64,000 bases of DNA from NCBI GenBank assembly GCA_028869385.1, contig JAGWSR010000023.1, positions 1 through 64,000 of the forward strand, read 5' to 3'. The stretch comes from a bacterium (lineage in GTDB: Bacteria > Vulcanimicrobiota > Vulcanimicrobiia > Vulcanimicrobiales > Vulcanimicrobiaceae). The translations under genes were made by a program, and so were the position numbers. Positions 33,416 to 43,003 of the stretch are shown here, one piece after another; position 1 is the first letter of the stretch; each line of letters begins with the position of its first letter. The notes below the pieces were generated by a model. It was not told the DNA's origin. It searched no databases and saw nothing but the letters and a program-made list of their open reading frames with translations.

Positions 33416-34108
33416 ATGGCATTAGCCCGGATACTCGTGATCGAGGACGACGACGACGTCGCCCGGCTCGAACAGACCGTTCTGGAGCGGGCCGGATACG
33501 AAATCCGGGTGACCGGGAGCGGTGCGGAGGGCCTCGAGCTCGCCGACAGCTACAAGCCCGACGTCGTGATCCTCGACGTCGGCTTGCCCGATATCTCGGG
33601 GCTCGACGTCTGCACCTCGCTCTCGAATTCGACGAACTGCTACATCCTGATGGTGAGCGGCCATTCGCGCGAGCAAGACATCTTGCTCGGGCTCGGTCTC
33701 GGGGCCGACGACTACATCACGAAGCCGTTCTCGGGTAACGAACTCGTCGCGCGCGTCGCGTCGTTTCTGCGCCGTCGTGAGAAGACGTCGCAGAAGCGCG
33801 AGGGCGCGAACATTCTCAACCTCGGCGCGTCGTATCTCGACCGCGATTTTCACACGCTCGTTCATAGCGATCGCACCGTCTCGCTGACCGCGCTCGAGTT
33901 TCGCTTGCTCTGGTTTTTGGGCGAAGCCGAGGGCCGGCTCCTGACGCGCGCGCAGATTCTCGAACACGTGTGGAACGACACCTCGGGCGTGCCGACGCGC
34001 GTCGTGGACGTGCACGTCGCCGCGCTACGCAAGAAACTCGCCGAGGCCGATGCGCCGCTCGAGATCGCGAGCGTGCGCGGCATCGGCTATCGTCTCGACA
34101 AGAAGTAA
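33416..34108 (+). CDS. OmpR/PhoB-family response regulator
   Basis: A 230-aa transcription regulator. The receiver domain has Glu10-Asp11, phospho-acceptor Asp54 (VVILDVGLPD), Ser in MVSGH and Lys in YITKPFSGNEL. The C-terminal winged helix begins near residue 130 with LNLGASYLDRDFH, LTALEFRLLWFL and the recognition helix TRVVDVHVAALRKKL, ending IRGIGYRL-like (VRGIGYRLDKK). AGGAG lies about 12 bases before ATG 33416. No sensor kinase is adjacent. Confidence 0.94.
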   Translation: MALARILVIEDDDDVARLEQTVLERAGYEIRVTGSGAEGLELADSYKPDVVILDVGLPDISGLDVCTSLSNSTNCYILMVSGHSREQDILLGLGLGADDYITKPFSGNELVARVASFLRRREKTSQKREGANILNLGASYLDRDFHTLVHSDRTVSLTALEFRLLWFLGEAEGRLLTRAQILEHVWNDTSGVPTRVVDVHVAALRKKLAEADAPLEIASVRGIGYRLDKK

Positions 34109-34138
34109 GCGGCGCGAACCGCGTCGCTCGCGACCGTA

Positions 34139-35593
34139 ATGCCTCTCGACCTCCGCCTCGAGCCTGCCGACGCGCGGCCGCTCTACGTGCAACTCGCCGA
34201 TCAACTGGTCGAGGCGATCGAATCCGAGCTCCTCGCTCCCGGCGCGCGTCTTCCGGCGATGCGAGAACTCGCGCGCGAACTCTCGTGCGCGCTCGTGACC
34301 GTCTCGCAGGCCTACGAATTGCTCGCGGCGCGCGGTCGCGTGATCTCGCGCGTCGGCAAGGGCACCTTCGTCGCACCGCCGCCGGAGAGCACGACGCCCT
34401 TCGCGCGCCGTTGGGAGCCCGACGTCGCGCGGCTCGCGCGCGCCCAACGCCTCGAGGGCGTGATGGAGCAGCTCACGCGTGCCACGGCTCCCGGGGCGAT
34501 CTCGCTCGCGGCGGGCCATCCCGCGCCTGAGACGTTTCCGCTTCACGATTTCGGACGCGCGTTGCAGCGCACGCTGCTCGACGATCCGCCCGAAGCGATG
34601 CAGTACCGCTCCTCGACCGGTGACGGCGACCTCTGCGAGACGCTCGCGGGGTTCTTGCGCGGACGCGGCTGCGCGAGCGCCGAGGCGAGCGACGTGATCG
34701 TCTGCAGCGGCGCGCAGCAGGCGGTGGATCTGGTCGCGACGCTGCTGCTCGACGAACGCGACGTCGTGGCGAGCGAGAGTCCGGCATTCTCCGGCACGCT
34801 CGGCGTCTTCGACGCGCGCGGCATCACCTACGTCGAGGTGCGCAGCGACGCCGACGGCGTGCGCACCGACGATGTCGAACGCGTTTTCGCGGAGCACCGT
34901 CCGCGCCTGTTTTACGTCAATCCGATCGCGCAGAATCCAACGGGGGCCGTGCTGCCGCAGCGTCGAGCGAAGCAGATCGTGACGCTCGCGCGGCGCTACG
35001 ACGTGGTGATTCTCGAGGATCAGACCGGCTGGCAACTCACCTACGACGCCGCCGCTCCGCCGCCGCTTGCCGCGTTCGACACCGACGGCCGCGTGATCGT
35101 TATGGAGAGCCTTTCGAAATCGCTCTTTCCGGCGTTGCGCATCGGCTATCTGTACGCGAAGGGCTCGATCGCCGAGGCGCTCGAGGTGGCGAAAGTGCGC
35201 GCCGACGTCTTTACCTCGACGCTCACCCAGCGCGCGCTGTGGCGCTTGATGAACGCTCCCGCGTACGCGCGCCATTGGCGCAGCGCGCGCGGGCTGTATC
35301 GCGCGCGGCGCGACGCGTTCCTCGAGGCGCTGGCGGAGTTCGTGCCGTGGGCCGACGTGCGTCCGCCCGCAGCCGGCGTGAACGTCTGGATCGCGCTGCC
35401 GCCGCGCCTCTCCACGCAGGCGGCGTTCGACGCCTGCGCGCGCGAAGGCGTGCTCGTGATGCCCGCCGAGCCGTTCTATCCGACGCGCAGCGGGCCGCCC
35501 GCGATCCGGCTCTCGTTCGGGCATCTCGACGAAGCGACGGCGCGCGAAGGGGTGCGCCGCGTCGGCGCGGCCTTGAACGAGTTCGTGCACTAG
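34139..35593 (+). CDS. MocR-type regulator / PLP aminotransferase (GntR-aminotransferase fusion)
   Basis: A 484-aa protein. Residues 1-~75 are a GntR winged helix (PLYVQLADQLVEAIESELLA, LPAMRELARELSCALVTVSQAYELLAARG). The rest is a class I aminotransferase fold with the PLP Lys327 in ESLSKSLFPALRIGYL and YVNPIAQNPTGAVL. MocR proteins control vitamin B6, taurine, ectoine or amino acid genes; some fusions act as aminotransferases. No target gene is obvious from the neighbours, and the upstream gap is only 30 bases. Confidence 0.9.
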   Translation: MPLDLRLEPADARPLYVQLADQLVEAIESELLAPGARLPAMRELARELSCALVTVSQAYELLAARGRVISRVGKGTFVAPPPESTTPFARRWEPDVARLARAQRLEGVMEQLTRATAPGAISLAAGHPAPETFPLHDFGRALQRTLLDDPPEAMQYRSSTGDGDLCETLAGFLRGRGCASAEASDVIVCSGAQQAVDLVATLLLDERDVVASESPAFSGTLGVFDARGITYVEVRSDADGVRTDDVERVFAEHRPRLFYVNPIAQNPTGAVLPQRRAKQIVTLARRYDVVILEDQTGWQLTYDAAAPPPLAAFDTDGRVIVMESLSKSLFPALRIGYLYAKGSIAEALEVAKVRADVFTSTLTQRALWRLMNAPAYARHWRSARGLYRARRDAFLEALAEFVPWADVRPPAAGVNVWIALPPRLSTQAAFDACAREGVLVMPAEPFYPTRSGPPAIRLSFGHLDEATAREGVRRVGAALNEFVH

Positions 35594-35697
35594 CGGCCGG
35601 CGGGTTCGGCAGCCGAGCGCTCGGCATCCGGCGGCAGCGGATGCTCAGGTTTCGAAGAGGGCAGGTTCCCCGGGGATGGCGTCCGTAGCCTAGGGTC

Positions 35698-38013
35698 GTG
35701 AAGATTCGTGGACCCCTCGCGGCGGCTCTGGCCGCCGTTTTGCTGGCCGCCGCTCCGCGGCAGCCGCTGCTCGTGTACTCCGCCCCGGCCGGGGTGCGTC
35801 CCGCGGGCGCGAATGCGCTGCATCGCACCGATGCGGTGCTGCCCGATGGACGGATCGCCGCGCCGGTTGGTGTGGCGACCTTCGTCGGCACCAATCCGCT
35901 CGGCGTGGCGTTGAGCCCCGACGGGCGTTACGCCATCGTGAGCAACGACGAGCAGCTGACGAATCCGCCGAGCGCGGCGCCCTCGCCCGAACTCGCCGCG
36001 GGGTACTCGCTCGCGGTCGTGGACACGCGCACGATGCGCGTCGCGAGCGTCTATCATGCCGATGATGCGGCGTTCTTCGTCGGCGTCGCCGCGGTGCGCG
36101 ATCCGGCCAATCCCGCGCAGACGCTCGTGCTCGCCTCCGACGGCCCGAACGGACGCGTGCGCGTCTTCGACCTCGCCGATGACGGAACGCTGACGCCCGA
36201 GCCTGCCGTGCTCGCCGTCGGCGGCTTTCCCGCGACGATCGATATCGCGCCGAACGGGCGCATCGCGTACGTCGCGAACAATCTCGGCAATCGCGTGACC
36301 GCGATCGATCTTACGACGCGGCGCGTGCTCCATGCGACCGCGGTCGGCTACGCGCCCTTCGGCGTCGCGGTGAGTGCGGATCGCGCCTACGTCACCAACG
36401 GCGGACTCGCGACCTACGCCACGCTCGAACGTCCGCGCACCGCGCCGACCTTCGCGAACGCGAACGCGGATCCGGACAAGTCGTCGTCGCTCTCGGTCGT
36501 CACGCTCGATGCGAGCGGCGATATCCTTTCCGATCCGGCCGACGCAAGCATCGTACGCATGGATCCGGTGCCCGACGGTACGACGACCATCGGCGGGGCG
36601 CGCCCGGGCGCGCTCGTCGTGCGCCGCGACGGCGAGTACGCGTACGTGGCGCTCTCGAACGTGGATCGCATCGCGACCGTCGCGCTGCGGCCGACGCCGC
36701 GCGTGATCTCGGGTCTCGACATCCGCCTCTTCGTCGATGCGCCGTACGGCACGCAGCCGAGCTCGCTCGTGCTCTCCGCCGACGGTAAACGCCTCTATGT
36801 CGCACTCGCGGGACTCAATGCGGTCGCCGTGCTCGACTCGCACGATCCGGCCCAACTGCACCGCACGGCGCTGATTCCGACCGGCGCGTACCCGAGCGCG
36901 CTCGCGCTCTCGCCCGACGGACGCTATCTCTACGTGACGAGCGCGCACGGCGTGGACGGATGGGGCCTGCTGCAGCGCATCGACCTCAAAAAGACGTCGC
37001 TCGTGAAGGCCGCGCTCTCCGCGCTGCGTTACACGCGCGTCGCCGCCGCGGCCAAGCCCAACCACATCGTTCCGCCGCTGCGCTCGCACGATCGCAGCAG
37101 CGTCATCGATCGCGTCGTGTATATCTCGATGGGCGTCGGTACGTTCGACGCGTTCTTCGGACCGACGCCGCAGTTCGACGTGCCGAATCTGCAGTCGCTC
37201 GCGGCGCACTACGCGCTCGCCGAGAATCTGTATGCGAACGACGCGAACCTGGATGCGAACGCGCAAGTCGCCTTCGGCGGCGCGCCGACGCTCTATGCCA
37301 ATCAGACGCTGCACGTCAACGGCGGCCGCACCGGCCTCGACGCGCACGCGCAGGATCCCGAAGAGTACCCGCGTGCGGGATACATCTTCAATGCGCTCGC
37401 GCGTGCGAATCTGACCTATCGCGACTACGGCGCGCTCTTGAACCTCTCCGGCTACGACCCGCGCGCGAGCGCGCCGCTCGGCGGCGTTTACACGCGCGAC
37501 GTTCCCGCGCTCGCCGCGCTCGACGGGCACGTCGATCTCTCATACCCGGGCTGGAATCCGCAGGTGAGCGACGTCGCGCGCGCCGCGGAGTTCGTCTCGG
37601 ACATGGGCAAGCTTGTGGCGGCCGACGCGCAGCCGACCTTCACGTACGTGTGGCTGCCGTCGACCGGCACCCCGGAGAGCACGGCCGATGCCGACAAGGC
37701 GCTCGGCCAGATCGTCGGCTACCTCTCGCGGACGCCCCACTGGTCCTCGACCGCGATCTTCGTCGTGGGCGACGGGGTGAGCCCGAGCACGGTGGATCAC
37801 GTCAACCAGTCGCGCAGCTTCGCGCTGGTGGTCTCGCCGCTCGCCAAGCCCGGCTACCGGGGTAAGGCGCACCTCTCGGTCGCGAGCGTCGTGAAGACCG
37901 AGGAGGAGCTCCTGGGGCTCGATCCGCTCTCGCTCGGGGACCTGCTCGCCACCGATATGGCGGAGTTTTTCGGTGACGTCCCGTATCCGACACCGTACCA
38001 ATCTCTGCCATAG
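35698..38013 (+). CDS. Secreted YncE-like beta-propeller fused to a degenerate phosphoesterase-like domain
   Basis: A 771-aa secreted protein with signal peptide (1-20). Residues ~50-450 are a YVTN/YncE-type propeller with repeated SPDGRY blades. Residues ~470-771 align with the alkaline-phosphatase-superfamily domain of known bifunctional YncE/phosphoesterase proteins (YPGWNPQVSDVARAAEF, then WSSTAIFVVGDG and DHVNQSRSFALVVSPLAK). The expected catalytic and metal motifs are changed: VKENRTYDQ-type becomes SMGVGTFDA near residue 479, the NDHTAG-type loop becomes STGTPES, and DDxxxGxDHVDxHR becomes GDGVSPSTVDHVNQSR. It is likely a pseudoenzyme. Start GTG 35698. Confidence 0.82.
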   Translation: MKIRGPLAAALAAVLLAAAPRQPLLVYSAPAGVRPAGANALHRTDAVLPDGRIAAPVGVATFVGTNPLGVALSPDGRYAIVSNDEQLTNPPSAAPSPELAAGYSLAVVDTRTMRVASVYHADDAAFFVGVAAVRDPANPAQTLVLASDGPNGRVRVFDLADDGTLTPEPAVLAVGGFPATIDIAPNGRIAYVANNLGNRVTAIDLTTRRVLHATAVGYAPFGVAVSADRAYVTNGGLATYATLERPRTAPTFANANADPDKSSSLSVVTLDASGDILSDPADASIVRMDPVPDGTTTIGGARPGALVVRRDGEYAYVALSNVDRIATVALRPTPRVISGLDIRLFVDAPYGTQPSSLVLSADGKRLYVALAGLNAVAVLDSHDPAQLHRTALIPTGAYPSALALSPDGRYLYVTSAHGVDGWGLLQRIDLKKTSLVKAALSALRYTRVAAAAKPNHIVPPLRSHDRSSVIDRVVYISMGVGTFDAFFGPTPQFDVPNLQSLAAHYALAENLYANDANLDANAQVAFGGAPTLYANQTLHVNGGRTGLDAHAQDPEEYPRAGYIFNALARANLTYRDYGALLNLSGYDPRASAPLGGVYTRDVPALAALDGHVDLSYPGWNPQVSDVARAAEFVSDMGKLVAADAQPTFTYVWLPSTGTPESTADADKALGQIVGYLSRTPHWSSTAIFVVGDGVSPSTVDHVNQSRSFALVVSPLAKPGYRGKAHLSVASVVKTEEELLGLDPLSLGDLLATDMAEFFGDVPYPTPYQSLP

Positions 38014-38022
38014 CTAGGAATC

Positions 38023-38859
38023 ATGACGACCAAGGACGCGATCCATTTCGGCCCGCGCCTCGTGGGAACGCCCACGGGCAAACTGCGAGCCGCCGTACTG
38101 GTGAAGCCGACCGCGAGCATCGAGCAGGCGAACCCGCTCCCCGGTGAACCCGGCGCGGTCTTCGCGCGCACGCTCGAACAGCACGAGATCCTGCGCAAGA
38201 CGCTCGAGTACTTCGGCGTCGAGACGATCGTGCTCGAAGCGCGGGGCGAGGATCCCTACGAGTCCTCCGTGGCCGACGCGGCCGTTGCGTTCGAGGACGG
38301 CGTGACGATCATGCGTCCGAGCGCCATGTCGCGTCGTGCCGAAGCCGACCGTATGCAGAGCGAATTCGCGCGCCTCGACGTGCCGCTCGCGGGTCACATC
38401 GAAGCGCCCGGACTGCTCGACGGCGGCGACGTGCTGCTCGTCGGGGGCACGGCCTTCGTCGGCGTGAGCGCGCGGGGGAACGCGATCGGGCGCGCCGGTT
38501 TCGCCGCGGTCGCCAAAGCGCACGGCTATCGCGTGGTCGAGGTGCGTCTCGCTGCGGATGCGCCGTCGCTGCGTGCGGTCGCGAGCGCGGTCGCGAGCGA
38601 TACGCTCGTGCTCTCGTGCGACAAGGTGGAGCTCGATGCGTTCGCCGGCTTCAAGACGATCGTGCTCGAACGCGGTGAGGATATGGCGGCGGGCGTGCTC
38701 TGCCTCGGCGAGCACCACGTGATCGCCGACGTGCGCTACCGCACGTCGCTCGCGATCATGCGCAAGGCGGGCCTCGTGGTCGAGGGCATCGATCTCTACG
38801 ACTTCGAGAAGATCGGGCTCACGCCGTCGCTGCTCGCGCTCGCGCTCAAACGCGACTAA
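38023..38859 (+). CDS. DDAH/amidinotransferase-like protein lacking the catalytic triad
   Basis: A 278-aa protein of the guanidine-modifying superfamily, closest by eye to dimethylargininase (DDAH). The five-bladed fold is traceable: LEQHEILRKTLEYFGVET, EAPGLLDGGDVLLVGGTAFVGVSARGN (residues 127 on), DVRYRTSLAIMRKAG. Aligned with Pseudomonas DDAH, the catalytic Glu is Asp133, the His of HLK is Ser182 (SLRAV), and the Cys near the C-terminus is Leu270 (TPSLLAL). A hydrolase or transferase reaction is therefore unlikely, and a binding role is more plausible. It follows the pseudo-phosphoesterase by nine bases. Confidence 0.8.
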   Translation: MTTKDAIHFGPRLVGTPTGKLRAAVLVKPTASIEQANPLPGEPGAVFARTLEQHEILRKTLEYFGVETIVLEARGEDPYESSVADAAVAFEDGVTIMRPSAMSRRAEADRMQSEFARLDVPLAGHIEAPGLLDGGDVLLVGGTAFVGVSARGNAIGRAGFAAVAKAHGYRVVEVRLAADAPSLRAVASAVASDTLVLSCDKVELDAFAGFKTIVLERGEDMAAGVLCLGEHHVIADVRYRTSLAIMRKAGLVVEGIDLYDFEKIGLTPSLLALALKRD

Positions 38860-38860
38860 C

Positions 38861-39589
38861 TTGCGAATCGCGGTTCTCTCCGACGTCCACGGAAATCTCG
38901 CTGGATTAGATGCGTGTCTCGCCGACTTGCACGCGCAGGGCGGCGCCGACGCGATCGTCGCGGCGGGCGACCTCTGCGTCGACGGGCCGAAGCCGAAGAA
39001 GGTGCTGCAGCGCCTCGAAGAGGTCGGAGCGCAGGCCGTGCGCGGAAACACCGAGCGCTACTTGGTGGATCCCGGCGACGAGACGTTCGACGAGATCGAA
39101 GCCGCGCAGTTGGAATGGACGCGCCGCGAGGTCGGTGAGAAGTGGCTCGCGTGGATGCGCGATCTGCCCTTCGCCCTGCGCATCGGTGACGGCGACGAAC
39201 AACTCTTGGTGGTGCATGCGAATCCGACCAACGACGTCGAGCACCTCTGGCCCGATGCCGACGACGCGCTGCTCGAGCGCCTCATCGGCGCGGAGCGGGC
39301 AAGCGCGATCGCGTTCGGCCACCTGCACCTACCCTACGTTCGCGTCTGGCGCGGCAAGCTGCTCGTGAACGTCGCGTCGGCCGGGCTTCCGAAGGACGGC
39401 GACGCACGCGCTGCCTACGCGATCTTCAGCCAGCGCCCGGGTGGCTGGGAAGTCAAGCACCGGCGCGTCGAGTTCGACGTGAAGCGCGTTGCAACCCAAC
39501 TCACCGACTGTGGGATTCCGGGGAGCGACGAGCTGGTCGCCACCCTGCGTCGCCATCGCTACAAACGCCTCAAAGGATTCGTGCCGTAA
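38861..39589 (+). CDS. Metallophosphoesterase (YfcE/calcineurin-like)
   Basis: A 242-aa protein with the full metal motif set: LSDVHGNLAGL at the N-terminus, AAGDLCVDGP, RGNTERYL, a His in VVHANPT and the closing GHLHLPY. Relatives cleave phosphodiesters or phosphoproteins such as cAMP-like compounds or Ser/Thr phosphates; the substrate is unknown. The start is TTG 38861, one base after the previous stop, indicating coupling. Confidence 0.9.
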   Translation: MRIAVLSDVHGNLAGLDACLADLHAQGGADAIVAAGDLCVDGPKPKKVLQRLEEVGAQAVRGNTERYLVDPGDETFDEIEAAQLEWTRREVGEKWLAWMRDLPFALRIGDGDEQLLVVHANPTNDVEHLWPDADDALLERLIGAERASAIAFGHLHLPYVRVWRGKLLVNVASAGLPKDGDARAAYAIFSQRPGGWEVKHRRVEFDVKRVATQLTDCGIPGSDELVATLRRHRYKRLKGFVP

Positions 39590-39594
39590 CCTCC

Positions 39595-40314
39595 GTGACT
39601 CCCGCGATCGAAATCCAACATCTCGTCAAGCGTTACGACGATTTCACCGCCGTCAACGACGTCTCGCTGCGCGTCGAAGCGGGCGAGTTCTTCGGCTTTC
39701 TCGGCCCGAACGGCGCCGGCAAAACGACGACGATCAATGCGATCGTCGGCCTCGCGCGCGCGGACAGCGGAACCATCCGCGTTTTTGGACACGACAATCA
39801 CGAGCAGTGGCGCGAAGCGCGGCGTACGATCGGACTCGCACCGCAGGAGTACAACTTCGACCGCTACCTCTCGATTCGCGACGTGCTGATCTTTCAGGCG
39901 GGCTACTTCGGGCTGCGCGGTCCGCAGGTGAAGGCGCGCGCCGACATGCTGCTCGAACGGTTCGGCCTTGCCTCGAAGGCGAAGCAAGAGTTCACGCGGC
40001 TCTCCGGCGGCATGAAGCGCCGCTTGACGCTCGCGCGCGCGCTCATCCACGAGCCCAAGCTCATCATCCTCGACGAGCCGACCGCCGGCGTGGACGTCGA
40101 GCTGCGTTTGGAACTCTGGGATCTCTTACGCGAACTCAACGGCGACGGCCTCACGATCTTCCTCACCACGCACTATCTGGAAGAGGCCGAGGCGCTCTGC
40201 AAGACGATTGCGATCATCCGCGAGGGCCGCATCGTAACGCAAGAGTCCACCCGCGATCTGATCGCGCATGGCGCGAGCCTGCAAGACGTCTTCCTGGAGC
40301 TGACCCGCTCGTGA
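39595..40314 (+). CDS. ABC exporter ATP-binding protein (ABC-2 type)
   Basis: A 239-aa ATPase. Walker A GPNGAGKTTT, signature LSGGMKRRL, Walker B LIILDEPTAGVD and a switch His in LTTHYLEEAEAL are all present. The sequence resembles the YadG/NodI/CcmA group of ABC-2 exporters. Start GTG 39595, five bases after the phosphoesterase stop. It is coupled by a GTGA overlap with its permease. Confidence 0.93.
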   Translation: MTPAIEIQHLVKRYDDFTAVNDVSLRVEAGEFFGFLGPNGAGKTTTINAIVGLARADSGTIRVFGHDNHEQWREARRTIGLAPQEYNFDRYLSIRDVLIFQAGYFGLRGPQVKARADMLLERFGLASKAKQEFTRLSGGMKRRLTLARALIHEPKLIILDEPTAGVDVELRLELWDLLRELNGDGLTIFLTTHYLEEAEALCKTIAIIREGRIVTQESTRDLIAHGASLQDVFLELTRS

Positions 40315-41090
40315 CCGCCGTAGAGACATTCAATCGCATCGGGCTCTTCACGCTCGTGCGACGCGAAATGATTCGCACGATGAAGGTGATCAATCAGGTC
40401 ATCTGGCCGCCGATCATCTCGACGCTGCTTTACGTCTTCGTCTTCGGGCTCGCGCTCGGTAACCGTATCTCGAGCGTGCAGGGCGTGAGCTATGCGCAGT
40501 TCCTGATCCCCGGCCTCATCATGCTCCAGGTGATAGACTCGTCGTACGGCGAGTGCTCGAGTTCGATCTTCCAGGGGCGCTTCATGAACTCGATCCAAGA
40601 GATGCTGATCGCGCCGATGTCCGCTTTCGAAATGGCGAGCGGCTACGTGCTCGGCAGTTTGGTGCGCGCGCTCTTGATCGCGGCGCTCATCACGATCATG
40701 GGTGCGATCCTCGTCCACACCTGGCCGGTGCACTGGCTACTCTATGTGAGCGTGCTCGCGCTGGTCTCGATCCTGTTCTCGTCGCTCGGGCTCATCTTCG
40801 GCCTGATGGCCGAGAAATTCGACCACCTCGCCGCGCTCACGACCTTCGTGATCACGCCGCTCACGTTCGTCGGCGGCGTCTTCACGTCGGCGCAGATGCT
40901 TCCGTCCGCGCTGCGGAACCTCGAACTCTTCAACCCGATCTTCTATACGATCGACGCGTTCCGATTCAGCTTCACCGGCGTGAGCTATCTGCCGCTCGGC
41001 TTCTCGGTTGCGATGATCGCGGTGCTGGCGCTGGCCGCCTTCTCGATCGCGCTGCGCATGATGGCGGTCGGGTACAAACTGCGCACGTAA
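40311..41090 (+). CDS. ABC-2 type transporter permease (YadH/NodJ-like)
   Basis: A 259-aa permease with six hydrophobic segments, including FLIPGLIMLQVIDSSYGECSSSIFQGR and ITPLTFVGGVFTSAQMLP followed by NPIFYTIDAFRFSFTG, both typical of the YadH/NodJ/DrrB family. With the ATPase it forms an exporter for drugs, lipids or polysaccharides; the substrate is not predictable. Start GTG 40311 overlaps the ATPase stop. Confidence 0.92.
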   Translation: MTAVETFNRIGLFTLVRREMIRTMKVINQVIWPPIISTLLYVFVFGLALGNRISSVQGVSYAQFLIPGLIMLQVIDSSYGECSSSIFQGRFMNSIQEMLIAPMSAFEMASGYVLGSLVRALLIAALITIMGAILVHTWPVHWLLYVSVLALVSILFSSLGLIFGLMAEKFDHLAALTTFVITPLTFVGGVFTSAQMLPSALRNLELFNPIFYTIDAFRFSFTGVSYLPLGFSVAMIAVLALAAFSIALRMMAVGYKLRT

Positions 41091-41447: not shown

Positions 41448-42159
41448 CGCGTCGTCGTTCGCGCAGCGCGACGATCGTCTGCGCGACGAAGCCGGCGATC
41501 CAAGCCCAGAAGATCGGCATCCCGCCCAACTGCGGTTCGACCGCGACGATGACGGTGCCGAGCGCCAGTGCGGTGGTGAGCAGCTCCGATCGAAATCCAA
41601 ACGCGAACGAGGGATCACCGCGCCGACTCCCTTCGACGCGCGCCGGAACGAGGCGTGGGAGCAACGCCGGAACGGCGCGGCGATAGGCGTCGAAGGTTGC
41701 GCCGAATTGGGCGCGCATGCCGCGCGCTTCGTGATCGGCGAGCATGATGCAGAACGCGATCGAGCCGAGCACGACGATTCCGAAGCCGCAGGGCGTGGCG
41801 AGCGCGCCGATGCCGAGCGCGAGAAAGATGTTGCCGAGGTAGAGCGGGTTGCGCACGTAGCGAAAGGGACCGTCCACGTAGAGGACGTCGTCGAGCGCGT
41901 CGGGATTCCAAACGACGGCGGGCGTGAGATACGACGAGCCCCAGACGCGCAAGAGCACGCAGATGACCGATGCGCTCGCCGCGAGCGCGAGCCACACGCG
42001 CGGCGACGCGCCGGTGGTTTGCGCGAGCCAAGCGAACGTGGATTGCGGCGCGGCGCCGCCGCGGGTCCAGAGCCAGGTACCGAGCGAGAACGCGAGCGCG
42101 TAGAGGACGAGAAAGACCGTGCCGCGCCCGCGGTACCACCACGGCGAGCGCTCAGGCAT
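41422..42159 (-). CDS. Isoprenylcysteine/phospholipid methyltransferase-like membrane protein
   Basis: A 245-aa integral membrane protein of the ICMT/PEMT superfamily, which methylates small lipids or thiols with S-adenosylmethionine. The key motif is GPFRYVRNPLYLGNIFLALG, followed by the Glu-containing DHEARGMRAQFG and FDAYRRAVPALLPR. Start ATG 42159 overlaps the stop of the upstream metallo-hydrolase (8 bases), so the two are co-translated. A C-terminal extension adds two further hydrophobic segments. Its substrate is unknown. Confidence 0.82.
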   Translation of the reverse strand: MPERSPWWYRGRGTVFLVLYALAFSLGTWLWTRGGAAPQSTFAWLAQTTGASPRVWLALAASASVICVLLRVWGSSYLTPAVVWNPDALDDVLYVDGPFRYVRNPLYLGNIFLALGIGALATPCGFGIVVLGSIAFCIMLADHEARGMRAQFGATFDAYRRAVPALLPRLVPARVEGSRRGDPSFAFGFRSELLTTALALGTVIVAVEPQLGGMPIFWAWIAGFVAQTIVALRERRRVSASRAEP

Positions 42160-43003
42160 GATCGTCAAAGAATGGGTTGTGCGCGCGCTCCTGAGCGACC
42201 GTCGAGGGCGGCCCGTGCCCGGGCATCAGGATCGTCTCGTCGGGCAGGGTGAAGATTTTCGCGCGAATGCTATTGAGGATGTCGTCGTACGTGCTCACGT
42301 CGCCGTACGCGCCGCCGACGCTGCCGGCAAAGAGCGTATCGCCGGTGAAGAGCGTGGATTTGAACAGATACGACGACGATCCGTCGGTGTGCCCCGGCGT
42401 GTGCAGCATGCGGATGCGGACGTCGTCGCCGAAGGGGAGTTCCTCGCCGTCGCGTACGCGCAGCGCCGACGGCGCGAGATTGCCGATCGCGTGCGCGTCG
42501 AGTTCGTGCATCACGATCTTCGCGTCGGGAAACGCCGCCGCGACCTCCGTCGTCGCATCGCAATGGTCGGCGTGCTTATGCGTGATGAGAATGTACTCGA
42601 GTCCGTAGGCGCCCTCGTGCAGCATGCGCACGAGGTGCTCCGGAACACCGGCCGGATCGACGAGCGCGGCGCGCTTGCCGCCCTCGAGGAAGAAGACGTA
42701 GCCGTTGCTCGGATGGGGATCGTGCGGATGGTGGCGCACGTCCTCGGCATGCGGGATCGTGGGATACCACGCATCGCTCGCGCGATCGGCGAGGCGCTCG
42801 GGATCCAGGCGCAGCACGCGCGCGAGCGCGCGCGCTTCGTCGCGCGTGGCGACGCCGTCGTCGCCGCACCAGCGCGCAATCGCGTGCGCGGCGATGCCGG
42901 TCTGCGCGGCGAGCATCTGCGCATCGCTCCCGACGCCGCGCATTGCCTTACGCAACACGTCGCCGAACGTATCCTCGAGCGGAAGTCGCGGCCAGTCGCT
43001 CAT
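42152..43003 (-). CDS. Metallo-beta-lactamase-fold hydrolase with N-terminal HTH-like domain
   Basis: A 283-aa protein. Residues ~12-75 look like an XRE/lambda-type helix-turn-helix (VLRKAMRGVGSDAQMLAAQTGI, IARWCGDD, ARALARVLRLDPERL). The rest is a glyoxalase II-like metallo-beta-lactamase domain: ITHKHADHCDA near residue 140, HTPGHTDGSSSY, FTGDTLFAG and LMPGHGPPST. Zinc ligands are complete. The domain could hydrolyse a thioester or lactone. DNA binding by the HTH part is inferred. The start codon lies at 43003, close to the divergent gene. Confidence 0.87.
   Translation of the reverse strand: MSDWPRLPLEDTFGDVLRKAMRGVGSDAQMLAAQTGIAAHAIARWCGDDGVATRDEARALARVLRLDPERLADRASDAWYPTIPHAEDVRHHPHDPHPSNGYVFFLEGGKRAALVDPAGVPEHLVRMLHEGAYGLEYILITHKHADHCDATTEVAAAFPDAKIVMHELDAHAIGNLAPSALRVRDGEELPFGDDVRIRMLHTPGHTDGSSSYLFKSTLFTGDTLFAGSVGGAYGDVSTYDDILNSIRAKIFTLPDETILMPGHGPPSTVAQERAHNPFFDDHA

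Follow-up and report, generated by a model that had tools for sequence, protein, structure and literature searches.

A conserved DDAH-fold protein family of Eremiobacterota that has lost the catalytic cysteine and histidine

The gene cluster and its DDAH-like product

The window, that is, the whole 64,000-nucleotide stretch of DNA analyzed here, carries a gene for a DDAH-like protein within a series of co-directional genes, as follows:

35698..38013, + strand: upstream neighbour with a signal-peptide-like N-terminus (predicted from sequence only), a YncE/lactonase-type beta-propeller and a C-terminal phosphoesterase-like region
38023..38859, + strand: predicted DDAH-fold pseudoenzyme of 278 amino acids (sequence, profile and structure matches), the only copy in its genome
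38861..39589, + strand: downstream neighbour, a YfcE-type calcineurin-like phosphoesterase with a TTG start (domain matches, synteny)
39595..40314, + strand: ABC transporter ATPase (DrrA/NodI type), a member of the conserved cluster (domain matches, synteny)
40341..41090, + strand: ABC-2 permease (close to the threshold for the PRK15066 permease family, at 222 vs. 225 bits)

The DDAH-like gene opens with an ATG codon behind an AGGA-like ribosome-binding site, and its host genome comprises 3.08 Mb. The closest named relatives, at 90 and 87% identity, are metagenome genomes of Candidatus Eremiobacterota (WPS-2, Vulcanimicrobiota), a soil-dwelling phylum with few cultured members. In what follows, f1 denotes the bacterial family of the window gene, f2 its sister family and f3 the class-level relatives; residue counts and synteny refer to 65 f1 members and their loci.

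The co-directional order of propeller/phosphoesterase-like gene, DDAH-like gene, YfcE-type phosphoesterase, ABC ATPase and ABC-2 permease was kept in nearly all f1 loci. The gap between the upstream gene and the DDAH-like gene did not exceed 96 nt in 58 of the 65 loci, while the phosphoesterase was the directly following gene in 60, with a median gap of 8 nt (in the window it begins 1 nt after the stop codon). Intergenic spacings within the cluster are 0–20 nt, and, as far as gene arrangement can tell, co-expression of the cluster is likely. A fusion to the upstream propeller was considered and discarded: the two genes are separated by stop codons, and the long open frames seen in some genomes do not speak for one. 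The upstream gene itself is the fastest evolving of the cluster (dN/dS 0.18–0.35), and its phosphoesterase region gives a weak match to PF04185 (E 0.007, below the cut-off). Near the cluster, and conserved there in many relatives, lies a gene on the opposite strand (42152–43003, −) in which a helix-turn-helix domain (PF13560, below the curated cut-off) is fused to a metallo-beta-lactamase domain (PF00753, above the cut-off). Long antisense frames over conserved genes (34025–35590, 35590–37530 and 38014–39051, all −) are likely a by-product of high G+C content and not genes.

The sequence-only reading had assigned the DDAH fold to the protein, and this assignment was backed by several comparisons. 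A phmmer search of the PDB returned strong matches that were all DDAH (PaDDAH, E 7e-17; bovine and human DDAH1, 1e-12 to 3e-11), and the DDAH match improved to E 2e-22 when hmmsearch was run with a profile of 12 family sequences. An hhalign comparison of the 65 family members with 12 DDAHs extended over 254 columns, nearly the full protein length, with an E of 7e-50. Lastly, in a Foldseek search with an AlphaFold2 model, the top PDB matches were again all DDAH (E ~1e-12); RESC5, arginine deiminase, ArgZ and amidinotransferases came next. The model is of modest confidence (mean pLDDT 63, pTM 0.60) and too weak for mapping pocket or surface residues, side-chain geometry not being secure. The predicted pentein fold of the guanidine-modifying superfamily, of the DDAH type, is nevertheless secure. 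The Pfam search of the window protein matched no family, the gathering score of arginine deiminase (PF02274) not being reached, and both NCBIfam DDAH models scored it below their cut-offs (93.5 bits against 340 for NF045660; 79.3 bits against 450 for NF045658).

Catalytic and pocket residues

In the profile alignment, Cys249, His162 and Glu114 of PaDDAH are paired with Leu270, Ser182 and Asp133 of the window protein, the same placements that had earlier been made by eye. The corresponding codons, and that at the PaDDAH N204 position, are:

38419..38421, + strand: Asp133, catalytic-acid position (PaDDAH Glu114), acid retained (profile alignment; PMC10958460, PMC10256801)
38566..38568, + strand: Ser182, position of the catalytic His162, lost (profile alignment; S, R or A, with H in 0/65 family members)
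38692..38694, + strand: Gly224, PaDDAH N204 position, Asn lost (comparison alignment)
38830..38832, + strand: Leu270, position of the nucleophile Cys249, lost (profile alignment; M, S, L, Q and others, with C in 0/65 family members)

The residues that replace the catalytic ones are not themselves conserved among the relatives. Position 270 is occupied by methionine in 26 members, serine in 17, leucine in eight and glutamine in four, with arginine, asparagine and valine among the others; at position 182, serine (31) and arginine (21) prevail over alanine (11), with one proline and one cysteine. The column entropies of the two positions fall at the 54th and 84th percentiles. Other alignments were also tried for recovering the catalytic residues. 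Since the only cysteines of the window protein are Cys199 and Cys227, and its last 51 residues are free of cysteine, no alignment can restore the nucleophile; none that restores the histidine was found, and no histidine is present within 14 residues of position 182. Across the family, a cysteine occurs within the last 40 residues in three of the 65 members and never at the catalytic site.

The acid behaves differently. Position 133 is aspartate in 92% of the members, the catalytic acid of human and bovine DDAH1 is Asp127 and Asp126, respectively (PMC10958460, PMC10256801), bovine DDAH1 aligns there as LDGGD, and all six ordinary DDAHs found in the phylum have aspartate at this position. Because mammalian DDAH1 and the ordinary DDAHs of the phylum use aspartate, Asp133 counts as a conservative replacement. 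Thus, of the earlier claim that all three catalytic residues are lost, the part concerning cysteine and histidine stood while that concerning the acid did not: by alignment, the window protein has lost the catalytic cysteine and histidine and retained the catalytic acid.

An active enzyme with a different, Cys-independent chemistry, for example Asp-based, could draw on Asp133, Asp136, Asp85 and Arg104, which remain in the pocket region. However, no conserved cysteine, serine or histidine has taken the place of the lost ones, positions 270 and 182 being variable, and the asparagine at position 224 has gone as well: the family has glycine, aspartate or alanine there, with one serine, although all comparison sequences but one, a Cys-less Natribaculum protein with serine, have asparagine. 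Further, known Cys-less DDAH homologues are inactive (PMC10256801). We regard such an enzyme as very unlikely.

The roles of the binding residues are established for PaDDAH, and their equivalents have fared unevenly. In f1, Arg104 (R85 of PaDDAH, the carboxylate anchor) is conserved in 98%, Asp85 (D66) in 89% and Arg151 (R132) in 75% of the members, and all three are present in the window protein. The equivalents of D60 and E65 are absent from it: at the D60 position, the amino-group anchor, the window protein has Tyr79 and the family usually tyrosine, leucine or phenylalanine (91st entropy percentile), and at the E65 position it has Ala84, most members carrying alanine or glycine, chiefly the former. 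The sister family f2 keeps just the R85 equivalent and the acid (Arg104 and Asp133), without those of Asp66 and Arg132. The DDAH1 counterparts of these residues are named in PMC9980740 and PMC10958460. As the D60 and E65 equivalents are lost and Arg104 and Asp85 kept, the site appears to be a partly dismantled amino-acid pocket. The intact methylarginine site that had been expected is there only in part, and the case for putative binding of arginine or methylarginine via the old site is weakened.

The same residues bear on whether the protein could be a small-molecule sensor, in which the old pocket would still take up a carboxylate ligand, arginine-like or other, and binding would control a neighbour, for instance the phosphoesterase or the exporter. 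The f1 conservation of Arg104, Asp85, Asp133 and Arg151 speaks for such a sensor, while the variable D60 anchor, the predominance of alanine at the E65 position and the reduction to Arg104 and Asp133 in f2 speak against it, and some of the retained pocket residues may be structural. Moreover, although RESC5 keeps four binding residues, thermal-shift tests revealed no binding of citrulline or dimethylarginine to it (PMC9980740). A sensor is thus, in our judgement, rather unlikely.

Four residues, E42, R157, R238 and R277, were invariant in the 65 f1 members, and E42 and R238 also in f2. R238 occurs in no comparison enzyme and E42 in a few, while R277 corresponds to the C-terminal arginine common to arginine-deiminase-type relatives and is not new.

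Distribution, selection and ancestry

An intact gene without internal stops was present in 97 of the 99 f1 genomes, in one copy each, and in all four f2 genomes. In one of the two exceptions (G015), the gene is missing because two contigs end either side of its place, the locus being split between them exactly at the expected gene position; the other genome (G102), of 68% completeness, is also missing the neighbouring genes. The dN/dS values against four relatives were 0.098–0.165, within the range of most neighbouring genes, and the DDAH-like gene is kept by purifying selection in f1. Gene decay or faulty assembly would account for the missing residues and for nothing else. This reading is ruled out by the frame being open in each of the 101 f1 and f2 genomes with the gene, together with dN/dS values of about 0.1–0.165, and the invariant residues add to this, so that we hold it to be hardly conceivable.

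In the phylogenetic tree, f1 and f2 formed a single clade (support 100/99) apart from the ordinary DDAHs, and the gene was inherited vertically within one conserved gene cluster. Histidine was lost once on the tree and cysteine twice, once in f1+f2 and once in an unrelated haloarchaeal protein. In f2, histidine is kept and cysteine is replaced by alanine, a state that, on the alignment, looks like an intermediate stage. Catalysis may accordingly have been lost stepwise, the nucleophile disappearing before f1 and f2 diverged and the histidine afterwards, within f1.

The host genome was found to encode neither a second DDAH homologue nor any homologue of arginine or agmatine deiminase, PF02274 having no match in it, and the idea that the protein regulates an active DDAH paralogue within its own cell was therefore rejected for this genome. 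In three other f1 genomes (G044, G045 and G011), an ordinary full-triad DDAH is encoded beside the pseudoenzyme (L081, L082 and L083, respectively).

Candidate roles and known DDAH-fold pseudoenzymes

Since the catalytic cysteine and histidine are gone, the protein most likely acts by binding a partner or a small molecule, not as an enzyme. A binding or regulatory protein had also been suggested by the sequence-only reading; the family-wide data uphold a fold kept under selection without DDAH chemistry, the binding or regulatory role itself being what we infer from it. We consider it probable, with due reserve, that the window protein is a pseudoenzyme under purifying selection with a non-catalytic scaffold or regulatory role. 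It would be a five-bladed pentein located in the cytosol and belonging to the DDAH/arginine-deiminase superfamily, incapable of that family's Cys-dependent chemistry and retained for a non-catalytic job. The fold may now act as a scaffold or as a regulatory subunit, touching a protein partner via surfaces marked by Glu42, Arg157 and Arg238, the candidate contact residues, with Glu42 and Arg238 invariant in both f1 and f2 and Arg157 in f1. Counting against a pure scaffold, Arg104, Asp85 and Asp133 of the pocket are still conserved, which a scaffold need not keep.

The weakest step of this proposal concerns the partner, for which the ABC exporter and the YfcE-like phosphoesterase, neighbours on the same putative transcript, are the likeliest candidates. 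The f3 relatives have the ABC pair elsewhere, without DDAH-like gene or propeller, which weakens the ABC transporter as an obligate partner; the phosphoesterase, for its part, does not directly follow the DDAH-like gene in f2 or in a few of the f1 loci. Neither neighbour is thus an obligate partner across the clade. A fuller version, in which a near-universal, obligate regulatory or scaffold subunit couples a cytosolic phosphoesterase to the ABC exporter and has arisen from a guanidine-modifying enzyme, independently of the eukaryotic DDAH pseudoenzymes, seems to us distinctly unlikely.

DDAH-fold pseudoenzymes are already known from trypanosomes and mammals. Trypanosoma brucei RESC5 (MRB11870, PDB 8dpk; PMC9980740) is likewise a lineage-conserved, non-catalytic protein with several pocket residues kept, and it has lost the same two residues, with alanine and proline in place of the catalytic cysteine and histidine. 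In contrast to the window family, it is a subunit of a eukaryotic mitochondrial RNA-editing complex, is ~18% identical in the fold comparison and retains more binding residues, and there is no sign that the losses share an origin. Mammalian DDAH2 (PMC10256801) does not hydrolyse ADMA and has leucine or serine at the Cys273 position, comparable to Leu270 of the window protein; however, it is ~50% identical to active DDAH1, of which it is a paralogue among animal enzymes, and keeps the neighbouring Cys276, whereas the window family forms a separate bacterial clade. PaDDAH (1h70) and the ordinary Eremiobacterota DDAHs (L078–L083) share with the window protein the fold, a full-length alignment, the catalytic acid and the equivalents of R85, D66, D117 and N134, but keep Cys249, His162, D60, E65 and N204 and belong to a different clade. 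The window family resembles RESC5 and DDAH2 and yet, going by the absent cysteine and histidine and the NCBIfam scores, is predicted not to be a DDAH enzyme.

Our search, limited to the open-access literature, yielded no previous description of DDAH pseudoenzymes forming a family in bacteria. In f1, the loss has become fixed throughout the bacterial family. With the sister family at an apparent intermediate stage, the order in which catalysis was lost and a new role gained is open to direct study. For such genes, an automatically assigned name of dimethylargininase or of arginine deiminase family would be wrong.

The best-scoring relative outside f1 and f2, and the nearest intact one, was a non-syntenic DDAH-like protein from another family of the phylum (G086; L074:5761–6588), which shares Pro268 and the C-terminal arginine with the window family. 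It lies outside the conserved cluster and, unlike the window family, keeps the full Glu-His-Cys triad, for which reason it may be an active enzyme; its branch is long and its placement unsure. Searches of plasmids returned distant homologues only (28–31% identity). An 'arginine deiminase family protein' on a plasmid of the haloarchaeon Natribaculum luteum (NZ_CP095398.1, L140:271–1158) has glycine at the cysteine, threonine at the R132 and serine at the asparagine position, keeps the histidine and the glutamate, and is possibly another pentein pseudoenzyme.
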